Shown here piece by piece: positions 2,811 to 63,162 of a stretch of DNA of 64,000 nt. Position 1 is the first letter of the stretch; every line of letters begins with the position of its first letter. This stretch comes from a virus. The DNA lies in IMG/VR virus record IMGVR_UViG_3300024255_000023, positions 1 through 64,000 of that record; one strand, written 5' to 3'. Under the pieces are notes generated by a model. The model saw only the letters and a program-made list of their open reading frames with translations. It had not been told where the DNA came from and searched no databases. A program made the translations under genes and the position numbers.

Positions 2811-3496
2811 TGAGATTATTAAAGGCACAAAACACAAACTTACGTAATATTTACGGTAAAGGTGTAAAGTATGATGTAAACGGTCAAGTTATTATGGACT
2901 CGACTAATGTAATGCTTGTGCCTAAAGGTACAACAGCAGAACGTCCGACAGTGAATACTTCCGGACATTTAAGATACAATACTACACTTAATGAACTAGA
3001 AGTTTATTCCGAAAGTCAGTGGCGTAGTGTAAGATACAAAGAGCCAAATAACGATCCAGGAATTGTTAAACAATCACTAGGCAACGGCGATGCTACTATT
3101 GAGTTGTTTGGTCCTTTAGATAGCCAAGATCCTAATAGTACATATAAAGCACCTGCTACAGCAGACAACATATTAGTATTTGTTGAAAATGTTTATCAAT
3201 TATCAACAACTAACTTTACAATGGTACAAAATCCAAGTTCAACAGGAACAGGCCAAGAAGTTGCTTCAGGAAGTTTTAATATAGGATCAGAATATATTAT
3301 TACTGCTACAGGATCAACAGACTTTGCATCTGAACATAGTGCAGCTAATAATACTCCAGGAACAACGTTTACTGCTGCATCTGCAGGAACTGTTGATGCT
3401 ACAGGCCTAGCAAGACTTACAGGATACTATTTAGATTTTACTAGTGCTCCAGATATTGCTAAACCAATTACAGTACTACATAACTTCGATAAGTAA
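2810..3496 (+). CDS. Tail-fibre-associated structural protein
   Basis: This 228-aa protein has near residues 37-73 the cassette VPKGTTAERP...GHLRYNTTLNELEVY...W. The same cassette occurs near the C-termini of the fibres at 3527 and 8677 and in many phage tail proteins. The rest is a Thr/Ser-rich beta region (SGSFNIGSEYIITATGSTDF). It is coupled to the preceding gene by a one-base overlap. A late promoter inside a hairpin separates it from the fibre at 3527. Confidence 0.55.
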   Translation: MRLLKAQNTNLRNIYGKGVKYDVNGQVIMDSTNVMLVPKGTTAERPTVNTSGHLRYNTTLNELEVYSESQWRSVRYKEPNNDPGIVKQSLGNGDATIELFGPLDSQDPNSTYKAPATADNILVFVENVYQLSTTNFTMVQNPSSTGTGQEVASGSFNIGSEYIITATGSTDFASEHSAANNTPGTTFTAASAGTVDATGLARLTGYYLDFTSAPDIAKPITVLHNFDK

Positions 3497-3500
3497 ATTC

Positions 3501-3508
3501 AATAAATA
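3501..3508 (+). promoter_or_regulatory. Late promoter AATAAATA
   Basis: T4-type late octamer; the predicted start is 3514. The start falls between the two arms of an inverted repeat (3508-3513 and 3521-3526), so a transcript from here lacks the left arm. Confidence 0.75.
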
Positions 3509-3526
3509 CTGTATGAGGAGTACAGT
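3508..3526 (+). promoter_or_regulatory. Hairpin around the ribosome binding site of the 3527 gene
   Basis: ACTGTA (3508-3513) and TACAGT (3521-3526) form a perfect six-pair stem with the Shine-Dalgarno sequence GAGGAG in the loop and the ATG directly after. Read-through mRNA would contain the whole hairpin; mRNA from the adjacent late promoter would not. Confidence 0.55.
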
Positions 3527-6500
3527 ATGAGCCAAGTCGGTAGAATATCAGGACCATTATTAACAGCAAATCTTGAACGTCAAGGAAAAGATTTAGCATT
3601 TCGTAACGATCTCAGCACAACACAACTTTTATATTTAAATGTAAACACAGGTAAAATTGGTGTTAATACTTCTACTCCGGGTTTTGATTTTGATGTTACA
3701 GGTACTACTAGTACTACTGATTTAATAACAGACTCTTTATCATCTCCATTAAATAATCTTAATATTCAAAACAACACTATTTCAGCATCAGGAAACATTA
3801 CATTAGATGCGGCTGAAGCAATTCGTTTTGGAACTCTTGATAACGGTAGTATACGTATTAATGATAATACTATTAGAACGTTAGATACACATGCTAATAT
3901 TGATTTAATACCCCGAGGAACTGCTACTACTGAAATATTTAATAATTTAAATATTTACGGAAATTTAGAAACTCCTGGAAATATTACATTTGGCGGAACA
4001 CTTACACTTGGTAACGAAGATACTGATGATGTTAATTTTAATGCTGATGTAAATTCAAGTATTATACCAGATCAAAGTAATACATATGATCTAGGAACAG
4101 ATACTAAGCGTTGGCGCACACTTTATTCAAGACTTATAAATGGACAAGTACTATCAGCTGATCAAGCTATAATTGGCGGAATTAATGTTGCACTACGACC
4201 CGGTGGAATACTGTATGTATCAAAAGGTGGCAACGATACACAAGCTGGCGATTCACCTCAAGGATCACTAGCTACAATAAAAGAAGCACTATCAAGGACA
4301 GAAGCAAGCGGAGATCAGCCTTTAACAATTTTAGTATTGCCTGGAGTTTACGAAGAAATTGCTCCGTTAGTAGTACCAGAATTTGTATCTGTAATTGGTA
4401 CAGACATTAGAAATACCGTTGTTACACCAACTAGTGGCACAAGTGATAAAGATATATTTCACCTTAGTGATAAAACAGTAGTTAGTAATTTAACAATCAA
4501 AGACTTTACTTACAATAGTACAGACAACACAGGCTATGCCTTCCGTTTTGCGCCCAATGGTGTAATGAGTGAACGTAGTCCTTATATTCAAGATGTAACT
4601 GTACTAACTAATCCTACTACTCCGGGAGGCAGTGATGCAGGTAGAGGTGCTTGGATTGATGGGGATGAATTAGATTCTGCAAGCCCAAGGGCAACAATGT
4701 TGTTCCATAGTTGTACATTTATATCGCCAGGCGCTGATGTAATCAATATGACCAACGGTGTTAGAGTTGAATGGCTTAATAGTTTTACATATTTTGCTAA
4801 CAGAGGCTTGTATGCGTTTAATGGAACAGAAGGTCGTACTAGTATAGACGGCAGTACAACAATTTATGGTGCAGAGCTACGCTCAATAGGGTCAGCAAAC
4901 GTATACGGCACGTATGGCGCTGTAGCAGACGGCGCAGACTGTCTAATGTACCTAATACAACATAACTTTGCTTATATAGGTGCAGGCACAGACAGTACAA
5001 ATGACTTAGATTTAGTTGTACAAGCAAACGAAGTTGTTGAAACAAATTCAGGAAAAATACATCATGTTAGTACAGACCAAGTTGGTAACTTTAGAGTCGG
5101 TGATAATTTCTTTGTAAATTTAGAAACAGGTGATACTAGTTTAACTATTGATACTGCTGACATTGATACACTGTCAGGATTAGTTATTAATAGTCCAGGC
5201 GGTACAACTACAATTGACAGTTCATATATCACAACAGGTAATATAAGAATATCAGGCAATGACATTGTGTCCGTTGTAGGAGACTTAGATATTGATTCGC
5301 CTGCAGAGATTGATTTTAAAGATAATACTAATATCACTGGTAACCTAGATATTAGAGATAACTTTACATTTGGCGGAAGTTTAAATATTGCAGGCGACCA
5401 ACCTGGAAGAGATACAGCTGCCGATAGGTTAGTTTTTAATGTTGAATTTGAACAAGATTTTAAACCACACAGAGATCAAGTACACTCATTAGGCGAAGTA
5501 CAACGCCCTTGGCTAGAAACTAACTTAGATAAACTATCTGTTGGTGAAATTGAAATAGATGGCAATGTTATTACTACAACTGAATCTAGTGCAGACTTAG
5601 AACTACGTGCAAGCGGAACAGGTAATGTTGTATTTGATACCAGTCTAGAAATAACGAATGACTTTGAAACATCTTCAATTACTAGTTTGCAAGACGTTGG
5701 AATTACAGGAACACTAACTCACGTAGGTGCATATAATCAAACAGGTAATAGAAATATTACAGGTGACTTAAATGTTACAGGGTGGCTAGACGTAACACAA
5801 ACTGTTAATCTTGGCAATGTACAATTTGATGATAATTTTATTACGTCAACTGGCGCCAATACAAACTTAGAATTACGTGCTAACAGCACTGGTAAAATAC
5901 TTGTACCTTATGAAAACGTAAAAGTTATTAACAACTTGTCAGCAAGCAATATAACTGTAGATAATCTTAATGTTGCACAAAATACACAAATGTTTACAGC
6001 TGATGTTAGTGAAATTACTATACAACAAAATTTCATTGAAACTAATACTACACATGCAAATTTAGAACTACGTGCATCTGGTACTGGTATAATCAATATA
6101 CAAGATTCGTTAATTGTAACTCAAAACTTAGATGCTAACTCTGTATTATTACAAAACAGTTCAACTAATTATGAATATGGGCCTGAACTTGTTGTTAATG
6201 GCACTTACGATTCTAACCTAACAGGTTGGCAACAAACAGGCGGCGGCTTTGCTACAGCATCAAATGGAAATTTAAGAATTGATGCAATTGGTGCGGCACG
6301 AAACGTATCACAAGAAATTACAGTTGAACCGGGAAAGACATATGATTTTGAAGCACAATTTAGATTCGCTGATAACCCTGGTGAGTTTTTCTATCTAAGA
6401 ATATTTGAGTCTGGAGTAGGAACACTACAGGAATGGAGTAATACTACAGGACTTACTGCTGATGAAGTATTAACATACAGTTTTGTACCACAAAGTACAG

Positions 6501-49183: not shown

Positions 49184-49191
49184 GATAAATA
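49184..49191 (+). promoter_or_regulatory. Late promoter GATAAATA for gp13
   Basis: Predicted start 49197; GGAGAA (49199-49204) then lies upstream of the ATG at 49213. It forms an inverted pair with the octamer at 49172-49179. Confidence 0.8.
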
Positions 49192-49212: not shown

Positions 49213-50187
49213 ATGGCCACTAAAAAACAAGAAGTATTTGATTATGTTAACGCTATGCTCGGCGGCGGAATGATTGATGTTGAACTAGACCCAATTCATT
49301 ATGAAACTGCATTGAATAAAGCATTAAGCCGCTTTAGACAACGTAGTGATAATGCAGTTGAAGAATCGTATTTGTTTCTAGATACTATTATAGACGTTAA
49401 CGAGTACACTCTTCCAGGTGAAGTTATGGAGGTTAGAAAAATGTTTCGCAGAAGTATTGGATCACGTCCTGGAACTTCGGCATCCGGAGGACCAATATAC
49501 TCAACTACAGTAATAGCGTCTGCTTCTCAACAAGTGTTTGATGTGAACTATAACCTTGCAGCTATAGCAACAGTTGTAGTAACTATAAATGGTACAACAA
49601 CGACTAGCTATGGCATTGACAATGATGCAAGAACTATTACGTTTAATTCAGGGTTAACTGCAAATGATGTTGTTAGTATCAAACTCTACGAAAACGGAAA
49701 AAATGGTGGCGGCAGTTTGTTTGATCCGTTCAGTTTAGCATATACAAATGCATACCTGTTATCAAGTTCAAATATGGGCGGTCTAGCAACATATGATATG
49801 TTTAGCCAATACCAAGAACTAGTAGGTAGAATGTTTGGTAGTTTCATTGAATTTAAATGGAATTCAACAACTAAAAAATTAACATTACTACAACGTCCTC
49901 GAGCAGTAGAAACTATAATGCTATATGCATATAACTATCGTCCAGATGAACAATTACTGTCTGACTATCTAGCACAACAGTGGATCAAAGATTACACACT
50001 TGCTAGTTGTAAGTATATGTTAGGCGAAGCACGTTCAAAGTTTGCTACTATTGCAGGTCCACAAGGTGGGTCAACACTCAATGGTAATGATCTTAAAAAT
50101 GAAGCAATGCAAGAAATGGAAAGATTAGATCAAGAAGTAATTCAACAAGTCGGCGGCGGCGTTGGTTACGGATTTACAATAGGTTAA
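49213..50187 (+). CDS. gp13: Neck protein gp13-like
   Basis: This is a 324-aa protein (T4 gp13 has 309). The start ATKKQEVFDYVNAMLGGGM is followed by LDPIHYETALNKALSRFRQRS, EESYLFLDTIIDVNEYTLPGEV and RKMFRRSIG, and C-terminally by YNYRPDEQLLSDYLAQQWIKDYTLASCKYMLGEARSKF, the pattern of gp13 in T4-like phages. Residues about 97-165 (SQQVFDVNY...VVVTINGTTTTSYGID...SIKLYENG) look like an inserted beta domain. ATG 49213 is preferred over an upstream TTG because GGAGAA lies eight bases before it. gp13 acts in the neck complex with gp14. Confidence 0.8.
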   Translation: MATKKQEVFDYVNAMLGGGMIDVELDPIHYETALNKALSRFRQRSDNAVEESYLFLDTIIDVNEYTLPGEVMEVRKMFRRSIGSRPGTSASGGPIYSTTVIASASQQVFDVNYNLAAIATVVVTINGTTTTSYGIDNDARTITFNSGLTANDVVSIKLYENGKNGGGSLFDPFSLAYTNAYLLSSSNMGGLATYDMFSQYQELVGRMFGSFIEFKWNSTTKKLTLLQRPRAVETIMLYAYNYRPDEQLLSDYLAQQWIKDYTLASCKYMLGEARSKFATIAGPQGGSTLNGNDLKNEAMQEMERLDQEVIQQVGGGVGYGFTIG

Positions 50188-50192
50188 AACCC

Positions 50193-50218
50193 CTAGAAGT
50201 TAACGCTAACGATTTTAG
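50193..50218 (+). other. Hairpin after gp13, no T-run
   Basis: CTAGAA and TTTTAG-type arms with an inner GTTA/TAAC stem and loop ACGC, with a two-base bulge. There is no T tract, so it is not a classic terminator. It may be a processing or stabilising structure. Confidence 0.35.
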
Positions 50219-50219
50219 T

Positions 50220-50245
50220 TCCTTGTAAATACAAAGTAACAAGGA
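50220..50245 (+). promoter_or_regulatory. Ribosome-binding-site-sequestering hairpin with internal late-like promoter
   Basis: TCCTTGT (50220-50226) pairs perfectly with ACAAGGA (50239-50245), which contains most of the Shine-Dalgarno AAGGAGG (50241-50247). In the loop lies TGTAAATA (50224-50231), one mismatch from the late core; its predicted start of about 50237 removes the left arm. T4 genes e, soc and 49 use this arrangement. Confidence 0.55.
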
Positions 50246-50253
50246 GGTCCATA

Positions 50254-50499
50254 ATGTGTTCACCAGAAGTACGTAAAGAAGCTAACCGATATAATTGGTT
50301 AATTAAAGGCCAACTAATTGATAGAAACGAATCAGACGCAACTATCGAATACTTATATGACTCCTATTTTAGAAGACTTTGGAATAACACAGAAAGAGCA
50401 GAGTACGGAGCAAATGGCTTCGAAGCTGCATACGAACAGCGTGTTCAAGAACTACTCACAGAAGAAATGGAAAATGTAGCTCATTTAGGCTACGATTAA
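50254..50499 (+). CDS. Small conserved-type phage protein of unknown function
   Basis: This 81-aa protein, CSPEVRKEANRYNWLIKGQL...IEYLYDSYFRRLWNNTERAEYG...YEQRVQELLTEEMENVAHLGYD, is charged and probably all-helical. I recognise no domain. Its ribosome binding site AAGGAGG is very strong but lies in the right arm of a seven-pair hairpin, suggesting that translation is blocked on read-through mRNA. A sigma70-type promoter starts two bases after its stop. Confidence 0.55.
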   Translation: MCSPEVRKEANRYNWLIKGQLIDRNESDATIEYLYDSYFRRLWNNTERAEYGANGFEAAYEQRVQELLTEEMENVAHLGYD

Positions 50500-50501
50500 G
50501 G

Positions 50502-50530
50502 TTGACATACTTGTTTATGTAGTGTATACT
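50502..50530 (+). promoter_or_regulatory. Sigma70-type promoter
   Basis: TTGACA (50502-50507), a 17-base spacer, TATACT (50525-50530). The predicted start is near 50537, upstream of AAGGAG and the GTG at 50559. Confidence 0.85.
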
Positions 50531-50558: not shown

Positions 50559-51107
50559 GTGTTACCTAAGTTATTAGTAGTAGGTCATGGTCGTCATGGC
50601 AAGGATACGGTATGCGAGATGTTAGAAGCATACGGATATACATTCCAATCATCAAGTAAATTTTGTTCAGAACTTTTTATCTATAATGATCTAAAGGATC
50701 AATACGGATACGCCAATGAAGATGAGTGTTACGTTGATCGTCATAACCATCGTACTGAATGGTACAACATGATCCATAATTACTGTAAAGATGACTTAGC
50801 AAAGCTAGGACGAAACTTATTTGCTAAACATGATATCTATTGCGGACTACGTAACAAGCGTGAATTTTTTGCAATGCAGAATGAAGAAATATTTGACTAT
50901 GCTATTTGGGTAGACAGAAGTGACCATTTGCCTACAGAAGATCCTAGTTCAATGAGCATCGAACAATGGATGTGTAATTATACAATTGATAATAATAGTG
51001 ACTTAGAAAGATTAAAATTAAATGTAGATATCTTAATGCGAACTATTCTTATTAAAAATCAGGAACAAGATCTCCCTGCTTCCAAACAACTCCATCTTTT
51101 TGAATAA
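50559..51107 (+). CDS. P-loop kinase, probably deoxynucleoside monophosphate kinase
   Basis: This is a 182-aa protein starting with GTG five bases after AAGGAG. The P-loop VVGHGRHGKDT is at residues 7-17, then VCEMLEAYGYTFQSSSKF, AKLGRNLFAKHDIYCGLRNKREF and YAIWVDRSDHLP. The layout resembles phage dNMP kinases (T4 gene 1 type), which supply dNDPs for phage DNA synthesis. The family call is by overall pattern, not by a unique motif; another small-molecule kinase is possible. An early-type promoter fits a nucleotide-metabolism role. Its last 56 bp overlap the convergent HNH gene. Confidence 0.6.
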   Translation: MLPKLLVVGHGRHGKDTVCEMLEAYGYTFQSSSKFCSELFIYNDLKDQYGYANEDECYVDRHNHRTEWYNMIHNYCKDDLAKLGRNLFAKHDIYCGLRNKREFFAMQNEEIFDYAIWVDRSDHLPTEDPSSMSIEQWMCNYTIDNNSDLERLKLNVDILMRTILIKNQEQDLPASKQLHLFE

Positions 51108-51454: not shown

Positions 51455-51462
51455 GGTAAATA
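51455..51462 (+). promoter_or_regulatory. Possible late promoter GGTAAATA
   Basis: One mismatch to the invariant part of the late octamer, placed 42 bases before the gp18 start, where a late promoter is expected. TAGGAGA precedes the ATG. Confidence 0.4.
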
Positions 51463-55567: not shown

Positions 55568-55575
55568 GATAAATA
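55568..55575 (+). promoter_or_regulatory. Late promoter GATAAATA
   Basis: The octamer ends exactly six bases before the A of the ATG at 55581, so the predicted mRNA begins with its start codon. No ribosome binding site is present. Confidence 0.8.
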
Positions 55576-55580
55576 TTAGT

Positions 55581-56813
55581 ATGACAACTAATGCATATTC
55601 AAACAACCTAAATTCCTATAATGGACCTAAAGGTAATCTAGCTGATTACAATCATGCTTCGCGACTATTCCTCAGCAACAATTTAAAGTTTGCACCAAAA
55701 ACCAAATATCTGTTTCATACGTTTTTTGCAATTGATCCGAACGTAGCTAATACTATACAAGCATTAATTGAAAAGTATGGTATTGAAATTGGTATGCTTG
55801 TTAAAGCAGCAGACTTACCTAAATTTCAAGCTACTGTTGAAACACGTAAGAAATATAATCGTATAAAAAATATGCAAACAGCAATTCAATATCAGCCTAT
55901 TACTATTACATTTCATGACGATAATCATGGCGTAACAACAGCATTACTTGAAGCATATTATAGATACTATTATGCTGATGCCTGGTACGGGAATGATGCA
56001 GGAGCATATAACAAAGCTGGTGACGGTGATGCTACATACAAAGGTAGAGAACGTAACCAATTTAGATATGGATTAGATAATAATTTATCTGTTCCGTTTT
56101 TTAGAAATATACAAATATCTCAATTATCACGATCACAGTTTACAACATACACATTAGTAAATCCAATAATTACAAATTGGGAACATGATCAAGTTGAAAG
56201 TTCAGACAACGGAACCTTCATGCAGAATACTATTACGCTTCAATACGAAGCTGTTCATTATAGTAGAGGAACTGTAGAAGCAGGCGATGACGGTAATCCA
56301 GTTGGATTCGGAACAGTACATTATGATACACAGCCAAGTCCATTAGCTGTGCCTAATGCTACACAAGAAGAAGTTGACTTAGTTGCAAATACAAATATTG
56401 AACAATACACAAATAACGATCCTAATATTGATTATGATAACGGACCTTTAACATACTTGCCAGATGCGGTTAATGATCTTTATACTAGAATATCGCAAGT
56501 AACAAATATTGACAACATTGGCGGACTAGCTGACATTAATATACCAAAAACACGAGGTGCAGGCGGACAACAAAGTGTAACAAAATCTTCAAGTAGTAAT
56601 ATTACATCTAATAGTAATACTAACTCTAGTTTAAGTGTAGAAGATTTAACTAAGAATCCAGCAGCATTAGACTCATTAGCTAAGTTATTATTCTTAGCAG
56701 ACTTTTTAAGTGATGGCGGGGCTGGTATTAATGGATTAACTGCTGCTTGGGCAGCATTGCCGATTACACAAAGAGAATCTTATAAGAAACAAATTTTAGA
56801 GGAAGCTGTATAA
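55581..56813 (+). CDS. Tail-tube-fold virion protein (gp54/gp48-like candidate)
   Basis: This is a 410-aa protein. YSNNLNSYNGPKGNLADYNHASRLFLSNN leads to KTKYLFHTFFAI, GMLVKAADLPKFQATVETRKKYNRIKNMQTAIQYQPITITFHDDNHGVTTALLEAYYRYYYADAW. The second part resembles the gp19 tube-protein fold; T4 baseplate-to-tube proteins gp54 and gp48 are related in fold and of similar size, so a tube initiator or cap is a reasonable guess. The C-terminal part is Asn/Ser-rich (SSSSNITSNSNTNSS) followed by a helical end. The mRNA is predicted leaderless. The stop overlaps the next ATG by one base. Confidence 0.65.
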   Translation: MTTNAYSNNLNSYNGPKGNLADYNHASRLFLSNNLKFAPKTKYLFHTFFAIDPNVANTIQALIEKYGIEIGMLVKAADLPKFQATVETRKKYNRIKNMQTAIQYQPITITFHDDNHGVTTALLEAYYRYYYADAWYGNDAGAYNKAGDGDATYKGRERNQFRYGLDNNLSVPFFRNIQISQLSRSQFTTYTLVNPIITNWEHDQVESSDNGTFMQNTITLQYEAVHYSRGTVEAGDDGNPVGFGTVHYDTQPSPLAVPNATQEEVDLVANTNIEQYTNNDPNIDYDNGPLTYLPDAVNDLYTRISQVTNIDNIGGLADINIPKTRGAGGQQSVTKSSSSNITSNSNTNSSLSVEDLTKNPAALDSLAKLLFLADFLSDGGAGINGLTAAWAALPITQRESYKKQILEEAV

Positions 56814-59505: not shown

Positions 59506-59513
59506 AATAAATA
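59506..59513 (+). promoter_or_regulatory. Late promoter AATAAATA
   Basis: The octamer ends exactly six bases before the A of the gp17 ATG, predicting a leaderless mRNA. Terminator, promoter and start codon fit within 44 bp. Confidence 0.8.
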
Positions 59514-59518
59514 TTATT

Positions 59519-61099
59519 ATGGCAGCATCACTAGACGGCGTCTTAATTAAGAAAGCCAATAAACAAGAAACATTTACAAATGCACAAGTAGAAGACTTGA
59601 TGAAGTGCATGGATCCTGACGAAGGGTATCTACACTTTGCAAAACACTTTGCATTTATTCAACATCCTGTGAAGGGAAAACTGTTATTTGATCCTTACGA
59701 GTATCAGTTAAGACTGATGCACAGTTATCATAACTATCGTTTTAATATTAATATGATGCCTAGACAAACAGGTAAAACTACCTGTGCTAGTATCTACCTA
59801 GCATGGTATGCAATGTTTAAACCAGATCAAACTATTCTAGTTGCTGCACACAAATACACAGGCGCACAAGAAATTATGTCACGCATACGCTTTGTGTATG
59901 AGACTTGTCCTGATCATATACGTGCAGGTGTTACAAGTTATAACAAACAATCGATTGAATTTGAAAATGGTTCACGTATTGTAGCACAAACAACAACAGG
60001 CAACACAGGACGTGGTATGAGTATTTCGTTACTGTACTGTGACGAGTTTGCATTTGTTATGCCTAACATTGCTGAAGAGTTTTGGACATCAATATCTCCT
60101 ACACTAGCAACAGGTGGTCGTGCTATTATTACTAGTACGCCTAACAGTGATGAAGATACATTTGCTACTATTTGGAAACAAGCAGAAGAAAAGTTTGATG
60201 CACACGGCAATGAACAAGAGCTTGGAATAAATGGATTTCATAGTTTTGTTGCCGAGTGGCACGAACATCCCGATAGAGATGAAGAATGGAAGACAGAAGA
60301 AATTGGACGCATTGGCGAAGAAAAGTTTAGACGTGAGTATGGTTGTGAATTTTTAGTATTTGACGAAACATTAATCAACAGTATTAAACTTGCAACCATG
60401 GACGGCAGAAGCCCTATACTTAATATGGGGCAAACACGTTGGTATAAAAAACCAACCAGCCAATATACATATGCAGTAGCACTTGATCCTAGTATGGGCA
60501 CAGGTGGCGATAATGCTGCTATACAAGTTTTTGAATTACCTAGTTACGAACAAGTTGCCGAATGGCAACACAATCAAACTGCAATACCCGGACAAGTTAG
60601 AGTGTTAAGTGATATATGCAAGTATCTAGAAGAGCAAACTAAAAACCCGCAAGGAATTTACTGGAGCGTGGAGAACAATGGACTAGGCGAGGCTGCCCTT
60701 ATCGTTATAAACGACTACGGAGAAGAGAACATTCCGGGTTTGTTCGTCAGTGAGCCTATCCGCAAGGGACACGTTCGTAAATTCCGCAAAGGATTTAATA
60801 CTACACACAGCACAAAAGTAACTGCTTGTAGTAGATTAAAGACTATGATTGAAAACGATAAAATGATTATCAACAGCAAACCGTTTGTATCTGAACTTAA
60901 AGGCTTTGTTGCTACAGGTTCAAGCTATCAAGCAAAATCTGGTATGAGTGATGATTTAGTAAGTGCAACATTACTTGCTATCAGAATGATGAGTGTGTTA
61001 AAAGACTGGGATCCTAGAGTGTACAATTCGTTTAATCAAGCAGAGGATATTGAAGACTACGAAGCACCCATGCCAATCTTCGTTAGCAGCAATTATTGA
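59519..61099 (+). CDS. gp17: Terminase large subunit gp17
   Basis: This is a 526-aa protein (T4 gp17 has 610). ATPase domain: Walker A PRQTGKTT (residues 81-88), Walker B LLYCDE (Asp175, Glu176) and coupling motif AIITSTPN (about 202-209). The RNase H-like nuclease domain begins near YAVALDPSMGTGGDNAA (Asp323) and includes SVENNGLGEAAL and SDDLVSATLLAIRMM. It cuts concatemeric DNA and pumps it into the prohead. The ATG is predicted to be the first base of its late mRNA; there is no ribosome binding site. The next late promoter overlaps its stop. Confidence 0.95.
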   Translation: MAASLDGVLIKKANKQETFTNAQVEDLMKCMDPDEGYLHFAKHFAFIQHPVKGKLLFDPYEYQLRLMHSYHNYRFNINMMPRQTGKTTCASIYLAWYAMFKPDQTILVAAHKYTGAQEIMSRIRFVYETCPDHIRAGVTSYNKQSIEFENGSRIVAQTTTGNTGRGMSISLLYCDEFAFVMPNIAEEFWTSISPTLATGGRAIITSTPNSDEDTFATIWKQAEEKFDAHGNEQELGINGFHSFVAEWHEHPDRDEEWKTEEIGRIGEEKFRREYGCEFLVFDETLINSIKLATMDGRSPILNMGQTRWYKKPTSQYTYAVALDPSMGTGGDNAAIQVFELPSYEQVAEWQHNQTAIPGQVRVLSDICKYLEEQTKNPQGIYWSVENNGLGEAALIVINDYGEENIPGLFVSEPIRKGHVRKFRKGFNTTHSTKVTACSRLKTMIENDKMIINSKPFVSELKGFVATGSSYQAKSGMSDDLVSATLLAIRMMSVLKDWDPRVYNSFNQAEDIEDYEAPMPIFVSSNY

Positions 61100-61105
61100 T
61101 AAATA
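61098..61105 (+). promoter_or_regulatory. Late promoter GATAAATA
   Basis: It overlaps the gp17 stop codon. The octamer ends exactly six bases before the A of the ATG at 61111, predicting a leaderless mRNA. Confidence 0.8.
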
Positions 61106-61110
61106 CTTTT

Positions 61111-63162
61111 ATGAAGAATCTTGACAACATAGCAGATGAACTATTTAATAAAGTTCGAGGACGTTTTCCGAATGTTACTATTGGTGACGAAGAAGGAAAA
61201 ATAACTAATGTACCTGAAGAAGCTCGTTTCTTTGACTTTGAGTACAAAGAGTCAAACAGAGCATTAGGTAAAGTAAGTATTAGTATTGACGATACTAGTT
61301 TAAGTGTTATGTATAGTAATGATTTTGTTGCTAATGAAGACGCAATGACTAGAGACAATTGGTATAATTTTCTTAAAGAGCTTAGAGTATTCAGCAAGAA
61401 AAGAATGTTAAATTTTGATACTAGAAATATTACAAAATCAAACTTAGATCGCAGAGATTACAACTTTTTAGCGTCAAACCGCACTGAGGAAGAACAGATG
61501 ACAGAGTCAACAATGTATGGAACAGATAAAACAAGTTTTCAAAAATTTGGAAACGCAAAATTATCTATAAAACATTCTACGCCAATTAGCGTAGAAGAGA
61601 ATAGCAGAGCCAGAAGTCAAAAGATTGGCAAAATTTATATTGAAAATGCAGAGGGTGAAAAGTTTAAATATCCTTACAAACACCTAAGCGGTGCAAGAGC
61701 AATGGCAACACATGTTGCAGAAGGCGGTTATCCTTATGATGACTTTGGTAAACATATTGTAGGTTTGTCAGAAGAACTAAACAAGTTACGTAAGTTTAAA
61801 ACTTATATGGGCCGTTCAAGTGTAATGGCAGAAAGTCTAGCTGGATATGTAGACATTGTTAAAGAACGTGCAGTAGCAATTAAAAAAGAAATTTCAAATT
61901 TACAAAAACCAGGTTATTATAAAGAAGCAGTTGACGGCTTTGAAACACCTGTACTAGAAGATGTACCAAGTGATGTTGCAGAAAATTGGATTGATCAACT
62001 TACTATCAAACAGTTTAACGAAGAATTACAAGATGTTTTTCCATACATTTATAATCTTGTAAGTGAAGCAACAAAAGCACAAGACGTAACATTAGAAGAA
62101 TTAGAAGAAGGTCCTATTGATTGGGCTAAAGGTAAGATTGCTGACTTTAAACAAGGTCGTGCTGACAATATGAAACAGTATGATCAAGACTTACATATAT
62201 TAAGAACGGTATTGTCAAGCAACGGCATGGACAAAACAATGATCAGCAGACTAGAACAAGGTTGTTTAAATGATCCAAGAGTTTGTTTGTATAATGAAAT
62301 TCGTAAAAAGAATATGCAAGCCGGTGATATGGATGTAGAAGTAGAACGCATTGGTAAAGAATTAAACAGTGGGTGGACTACACGTTCGGGTACAACAGAT
62401 GAACAAGCTATTGAAGATGCATTTGAAGAAATGATGGGACAGTTTGGTGAAGGTAACAGCCCGCACAAAAAAGGTACTGCAAAGTACAAGAAGCATATGG
62501 CAGCAATGCATGCCGAAGACTTTGATCCTGAACATTTTGATGGAGAGTTTCAAGGTTATGCTACAGGTGACGACGGTGAAGAAGACGGAGCAGATATAGA
62601 GTACACAGCAACAATAGTTAACGGTAAGCCAGTTGTGCATCCTAAGTCAATTAGAGTACATGCACATGGTACCAATCCAAGTAGCAAATTAGGCCATGAT
62701 GTTGATATGGATACTGAAATGCAAGATCCAGAAGACATGATGCAACAGTGTCAAGATCATGCAAACGAACTTTGGGCAAAGCAACAACAAGCACAAGGCG
62801 AAGGTAATGCATATTCAGGTGCTGTAGCAAAAGCTAAAATGAACGGCAAGAAAAAAGGTGACAAAATTGACGGTCCAGACGGTGACGAGATTACACTTGA
62901 AAAGGACGAAAAGACACCATTAGGCGAGTTCATACTAAGTTACTTTGATAGAGAAAACGGACAGTTTCCAAAAGGTGAAACAGCAGTACTAACAATGGTA
63001 GAGAAAGACTACGGCGAGAAATTTATTACACCTGCTAAACAATTTATTGAAATGATCAATAACAAAGTAGCAGAAGTAATGGGCTACAGAGATACTGAAA
63101 TGGAACCAACGATACAACAAGACGAAGAACTAGGCGATATACGTAGATTATCAGGGCTGTAA
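61111..63162 (+). CDS. Large conserved marine-myovirus protein of unknown function
   Basis: This is a 684-aa protein from the ATG at 61111 (MKNLDNIADELFNKVRGRFPNVTIGDEEGKITN); an upstream TTG would lie within the promoter. It is acidic and hydrophilic, with no signal peptide or membrane segment. The N-terminal domain (about 1-110) includes ARFFDFEY and WYNFLKELRVFSKKRMLNFDTRNI; the middle is helical; the C-terminus (PDGDEITLEKDEKTPLGEFILSYFDRENGQFPKGETAVLTMVEKDYGEKF) is compact. I know this pattern from environmental T4-like contigs beside gp17, without function. It may be an internal head or packaging protein by position and late expression. Confidence 0.65.
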   Translation: MKNLDNIADELFNKVRGRFPNVTIGDEEGKITNVPEEARFFDFEYKESNRALGKVSISIDDTSLSVMYSNDFVANEDAMTRDNWYNFLKELRVFSKKRMLNFDTRNITKSNLDRRDYNFLASNRTEEEQMTESTMYGTDKTSFQKFGNAKLSIKHSTPISVEENSRARSQKIGKIYIENAEGEKFKYPYKHLSGARAMATHVAEGGYPYDDFGKHIVGLSEELNKLRKFKTYMGRSSVMAESLAGYVDIVKERAVAIKKEISNLQKPGYYKEAVDGFETPVLEDVPSDVAENWIDQLTIKQFNEELQDVFPYIYNLVSEATKAQDVTLEELEEGPIDWAKGKIADFKQGRADNMKQYDQDLHILRTVLSSNGMDKTMISRLEQGCLNDPRVCLYNEIRKKNMQAGDMDVEVERIGKELNSGWTTRSGTTDEQAIEDAFEEMMGQFGEGNSPHKKGTAKYKKHMAAMHAEDFDPEHFDGEFQGYATGDDGEEDGADIEYTATIVNGKPVVHPKSIRVHAHGTNPSSKLGHDVDMDTEMQDPEDMMQQCQDHANELWAKQQQAQGEGNAYSGAVAKAKMNGKKKGDKIDGPDGDEITLEKDEKTPLGEFILSYFDRENGQFPKGETAVLTMVEKDYGEKFITPAKQFIEMINNKVAEVMGYRDTEMEPTIQQDEELGDIRRLSGL

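Follow-up and report, generated by a model that had tools for sequence, protein, structure and literature searches.

The 81-residue gene and the hairpin of its leader

The window, the whole stretch of 64,000 nucleotides that was analysed, comes from a marine jumbo phage and is part of a 64,522-bp IMG/VR record that is itself partial. The terminase and the tail sheath that it encodes most resemble those of large T4-like phages, for example PA5oct, Phosso and Atu_ph07. The locus described here lies on the plus strand and is organized around a gene for a protein of 81 amino acids (50254–50499; ATG at 50254), which is preceded by the gene of a head-tail adaptor Ad2-like neck protein (49213–50187; phrog_211, E 6e-31) and followed by a dNMP-kinase-like gene (50559–51107; phrog_139). 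The dNMP-kinase-like gene has a sigma-70-like promoter, TTGACA-17-TATACT (50502–50530; 11 of 12 consensus matches), and the octamer census places a late-type octamer, GATAAATA (49184–49191), before the neck gene as the likely source of read-through RNA. The 81-residue protein is predicted to be all-helical and belongs to no known family, with no match in family libraries or in a fold search. Nucleotide and protein searches of named phages gave no match to the region or to the gene, and more than 500 relatives of the gene were found in IMG/VR, on environmental contigs of large T4-like phages.

The order of neck gene, 81-residue gene and dNMP-kinase-like gene defines the window type. The gene comes after DNA polymerase and MazG-like genes in three other types (L010, L044 and L316), and after the ribonucleotide reductase gene nrdB in another (L111). 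Because of these neighbours, early read-through into the gene is plausible in such relatives. In the window, the read-through RNA is probably a late mRNA, since a late promoter of the upstream neck gene lies at 49184.

The leader contains a hairpin of seven perfect pairs with a 12-nt loop, in which TCCTTGT (50220–50226) pairs with ACAAGGA (50239–50245). Predicted folds assign each of the seven pairs a probability of at least 0.94, and both arms have counterparts in the stems of relatives. The right arm overlaps the Shine-Dalgarno (SD) sequence AAGGAGG (50241–50247), so that the SD is predicted to be held in a helix in RNA that arrives from upstream. The stem with its SD and a late-promoter octamer are located where an earlier note, made from the sequence, had put them. 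The predicted cost of opening the SD is 3.8–6.4 kcal/mol in read-through RNA of various lengths, versus 1.0 kcal/mol in RNA that begins at 50237. An intrinsic terminator was rejected as an identity for the hairpin, as a T run is absent after it and none was called there.

The window hairpin by itself is only marginally unusual. The p-value was 0.03 for SD opening (0.09 with fewer shuffles) and 0.13 for duplex formation, and the wider fold gave a z of −0.44. The case that the hairpin exceeds chance comes from the relatives and their controls, and not clearly from the window sequence.

The late promoter and an upstream dyad

The octamer TGTAAATA (50224–50231) spans part of the left arm and of the loop, and its position is conserved in relatives. 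The late octamer of T4 spans −13 to −6 (PMC2988020), and the late start was accordingly predicted at the sixth base past the octamer, at 50237. Three window genes calibrate this offset: at 55581, 59519 (terminase) and 61111 the ATG stands exactly five bases past an octamer, which under the T4 rule makes +1 the A of the ATG. The predicted start falls past the left arm, as the earlier note had it, and two bases before the right arm, which begins at 50239; the predicted late RNA consequently does not contain the 5′ strand of the helix. The octamer-to-ATG spans of the three genes (55568–55581, 59506–59519 and 61098–61111) predict leaderless late mRNAs.

Octamers of the form NNTAAATA occur 17 times within 60 bases before gene starts of the window, where 1.6 would be expected; these mostly have A at −12, and those elsewhere mostly have T. 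The octamer of the 81-residue gene fits a T4-type late promoter, without a −35 element, and departs from TATAAATA by a single mismatch, a G at −12. This mismatch had been regarded as the weak point of the proposal, an objection that largely dissolves. A TAAATA core with G or C at −12 precedes the tail-sheath gene in 35 of 46 distinct leaders of these phages, and the octamer of the window's own sheath gene, GGTAAATA at 51455, is of the same class. Phage Aeh1 has also been reported with a/gC at −13/−12 (PMC2988020). Since the same variants at −12 precede most sheath genes, and given the Aeh1 variant, TGTAAATA is, judged by motif, an acceptable late promoter in these phages. Homologues of the gp55-type sigma factor are encoded on five large related contigs, and none was found in the partial record of the window.

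An operator-like dyad, GTTAACGCTAAC, lies upstream of the octamer at 50199–50210, and relatives have it at fixed octamer spacings. Of 99 leaders of the 81-residue gene family, 80 have the motif GTTnnCGnnAAC no more than 120 bases upstream, at distances from the octamer of mostly 12–13, 16 or 25–26 bp; none of 48 sheath leaders has it. Its shape, a dyad with a central CG, is one that we take to be reminiscent of LacI-type operators.

Predicted occlusion of the Shine-Dalgarno sequence in the relatives

The leaders of relatives comprise 100 distinct sequences, of which 91 distinct ones with a late-type octamer, falling into 24 dissimilar clusters, were tested. SD occlusion with the real left arm was compared with that obtained with shuffled left arms, at a threshold of p ≤ 0.05. 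Occlusion exceeded that of shuffled arms in 49 of the 91 leaders, where about five would be expected. With one representative per cluster, 9 of 24 passed the threshold, with a combined p of 9e-7, versus 1 of 27 other late leaders of the same phages (combined p 0.65) and 0 of 16 of their tail-sheath leaders (combined p 0.55). A left-right duplex test was concordant (8e-9, versus 0.05 in controls).

One class of leaders has the stem of the window with a loop of variable length. In the others, whose octamers are CATAAATA, GATAAATA or AATAAATA, the SD is again paired by left arms of unrelated sequence, namely GGGATCTCC, GTGGGTACCTCC, GGTGGGATCTTCC, GATCTCGC, GGGACTTC and TTCTACT. The arm GATCTCGC belongs with the SD GCGAGG, and that cluster pairs through CTCGC. 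Most of the left arms precede the predicted late start. Leaders of the ATAAATA class were considered as hairpin-free examples and rejected as such, as they use other stems. Predicted SD pairing is thereby maintained in many relatives by different, repeatedly rebuilt stems. Covariation in related phages was put forward earlier as a check: independent stems keep the SD paired across clusters, and within one alignable group, where 98.6% of cells pair through G-U/G-C exchange and one double change, covariation is not significant, the double change being single.

The pairing has exceptions. In the shuffle test 15 of 24 clusters were above p 0.05, and the SD is not clearly buried in well over a third of clusters; it is clearly open in several (L259/L342, L124, L199 and L020). 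The stem only abuts the SD in L008, L111 and L199, and some lineages have no stem. In L033, L034, L036 and L041 a tRNA-Arg gene, which begins near the predicted late +1, separates the octamer from an SD that is open. In L033 the tRNA-Arg (2903–2978) is followed by the 81-residue gene and then by a tmRNA gene (3259–3632; ARAGORN label tmRNA*, tag ANENFAPSG.ALAA), and L034 and L041 are arranged alike.

The measure of SD opening is itself imperfect, because it misses hairpins that hold the SD in the loop. T4 soc, a known case used as a positive control, was missed since its SD sits in a loop. T4 e gave 14.3 kcal/mol for the read-through RNA versus 3.6 for the late RNA, yet a shuffle p of 0.11, a value that probably reflects the second octamer and the leader of e, neither of which was shuffled.

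Comparable arrangements were observed at other genes. In L149 (about 1280–1336) the leader of a second, unrelated gene (MIDPVTAIGLATTAF...) has TATAAATA within a CCTCTT/AAGAGG stem that covers the SD. At 3501–3527 of the window a late octamer is followed by CTGTA-TGAGGAG-TACAG, a small hairpin with the SD in its loop as in T4 soc; its left arm would be absent from late RNA, and its SD measure is not significant. A tail-sheath leader of L122 (about 3190–3254), like those of L125 and L346, has a GTGTTC/GAACAC stem round AATAAATA that stops short of the SD. Finally, an Rfam freshwater-2 RNA (RF02980, 70.5 bits) at 254–338 of the window begins just past a late octamer at 232, within the leader of the gene at 336, whose SD and ATG it covers.

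A proposed switch governed by the position of the transcription start

These features are probably best read as a cis-acting RNA switch governed by the position of the transcription start, a reading in which we have considerable confidence. RNA derived from upstream would include the left arm, which would pair with the SD and reduce 30S binding. The gene's own late promoter, with its octamer in the left arm and loop, would start RNA at about 50237; this late RNA would not contain the left arm, and its SD would stay open. The 81-residue protein would thus be made chiefly from its own late transcript. We infer where late transcription begins, how strongly translation is repressed, which upstream RNA is silenced and when; sequence and comparison supply the anatomy, the occlusion as predicted, the maintenance of pairing, the late motif and the gp55 homologues of the relatives. 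The T4-like logic of the earlier note, silent read-through RNA and translated late RNA, is at the level of prediction supported by the anatomy, the independent stems of the relatives, the matched negative controls and the relatives' gp55 homologues. The late character of the window's upstream gene counts against the switch, as silencing a read-through RNA that is itself late would bring a less evident benefit; so do the clusters above p 0.05, the non-significant covariation and the imperfect measure.

The conserved motifs could instead be DNA sites. The promoter would be controlled by a regulator bound either to the palindrome TTGTAAATACAA that surrounds the octamer or to the dyad GTTnnCGnnAAC, the RNA hairpin being a by-product. 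TTGTAAATACAA occurs once in the window, and most leaders of the TGTAAATA class retain it; the dyad persists in most leaders of the family, and L008 and L009 have a perfect palindrome round TAAATA with the SD outside. Other clusters, however, pair the SD through different stems, with G-U pairs, bulges and loops of 5–38 nt, and do so where the palindrome is absent, which makes a pure DNA palindrome less likely. The right arm is moreover the SD itself in most clusters, and the dyad may work in addition to the hairpin rather than in its place. Taken together, we consider a DNA site alone to be improbable.

Two further explanations leave the hairpin without a primary role in initiation, and we rate both as very unlikely. 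A functionless hairpin, arising by chance where a short, A+T-rich leader contains a strong SD, is compatible with the marginal values of the window sequence and its wider fold, but not readily with independent stems over dissimilar clusters, whose combined p differs so widely from those of the same-phage controls; of all the explanations it is the one we believe least. Scarcely more credible is an element for processing or stability in read-through RNA, for example at the junction of the neck and 81-residue cistrons, with occlusion of the SD as a secondary effect. The stems that merely abut the SD agree with it, as does the tRNA, itself a processing site, that occupies the same place in four leaders. 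It nevertheless leaves unexplained the location of the SD inside the stem in most leaders, and that of the late start between the arms.

The proposed switch resembles several known systems. Long transcripts of T4 e sequester the SD in a helix, and a late promoter overlaps the 5′ strand of that helix, so that late RNA, which does not contain this strand, is well translated (PMC3014915). The leader of the 81-residue gene is alike by prediction, but e, the lysozyme gene, has a known role in lysis and is served by two late promoters, whereas the 81-residue gene has one TGTAAATA octamer and encodes an uncharacterised protein. In T4 I-TevI and mobE of Aeromonas phage Aeh1, a late promoter bypasses a hairpin at the ribosome-binding site (RBS) within early or middle units (PMC3014915, PMC2988022). 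Such a setting is suggested for the 81-residue gene by the gene order of the L010, L044 and L111 types, but I-TevI and mobE encode homing endonucleases, to which the 81-residue protein has no recognisable relation. T4 soc and gene 49 are likewise small late-expressed genes with a sequestered initiation region (PMC3014915); in soc, however, the stem contains the AUG and the SD occupies the loop, whereas the SD of the 81-residue gene is part of the stem. The seg43 leader of Aeromonas phage 25 has a stable stem just upstream of an uncovered RBS (PMC2988022), similar to the abutting stems of L008 and L199. That type is a minority in the 81-residue gene family, and regulation is putative in both.

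The logic is thus known from T4 e, soc, 49 and I-TevI and from Aeh1 mobE, and that of e, soc and I-TevI has been described at a few genes of T4 and of phages closely related to it; the present locus is probably a new case, and a well-supported one, in a gene family that is uncharacterised and belongs to large T4-like phages of marine origin. Tentatively, and with rather more doubt than confidence, two conserved layers may meet at one late promoter of a widespread marine phage gene: the dyad GTTnnCGnnAAC, read at fixed spacing by a host or phage regulator, and a late-bypassed RBS hairpin whose stem would repeatedly evolve anew while the gene shifts between early and late surroundings. The size of the family (more than 500 relatives), its several gene neighbourhoods and its independent stems make it a natural experiment on how an RBS switch is kept, lost (in the tRNA-preceded leaders) and made again, and off-time expression of the 81-residue protein seems to be under negative selection.
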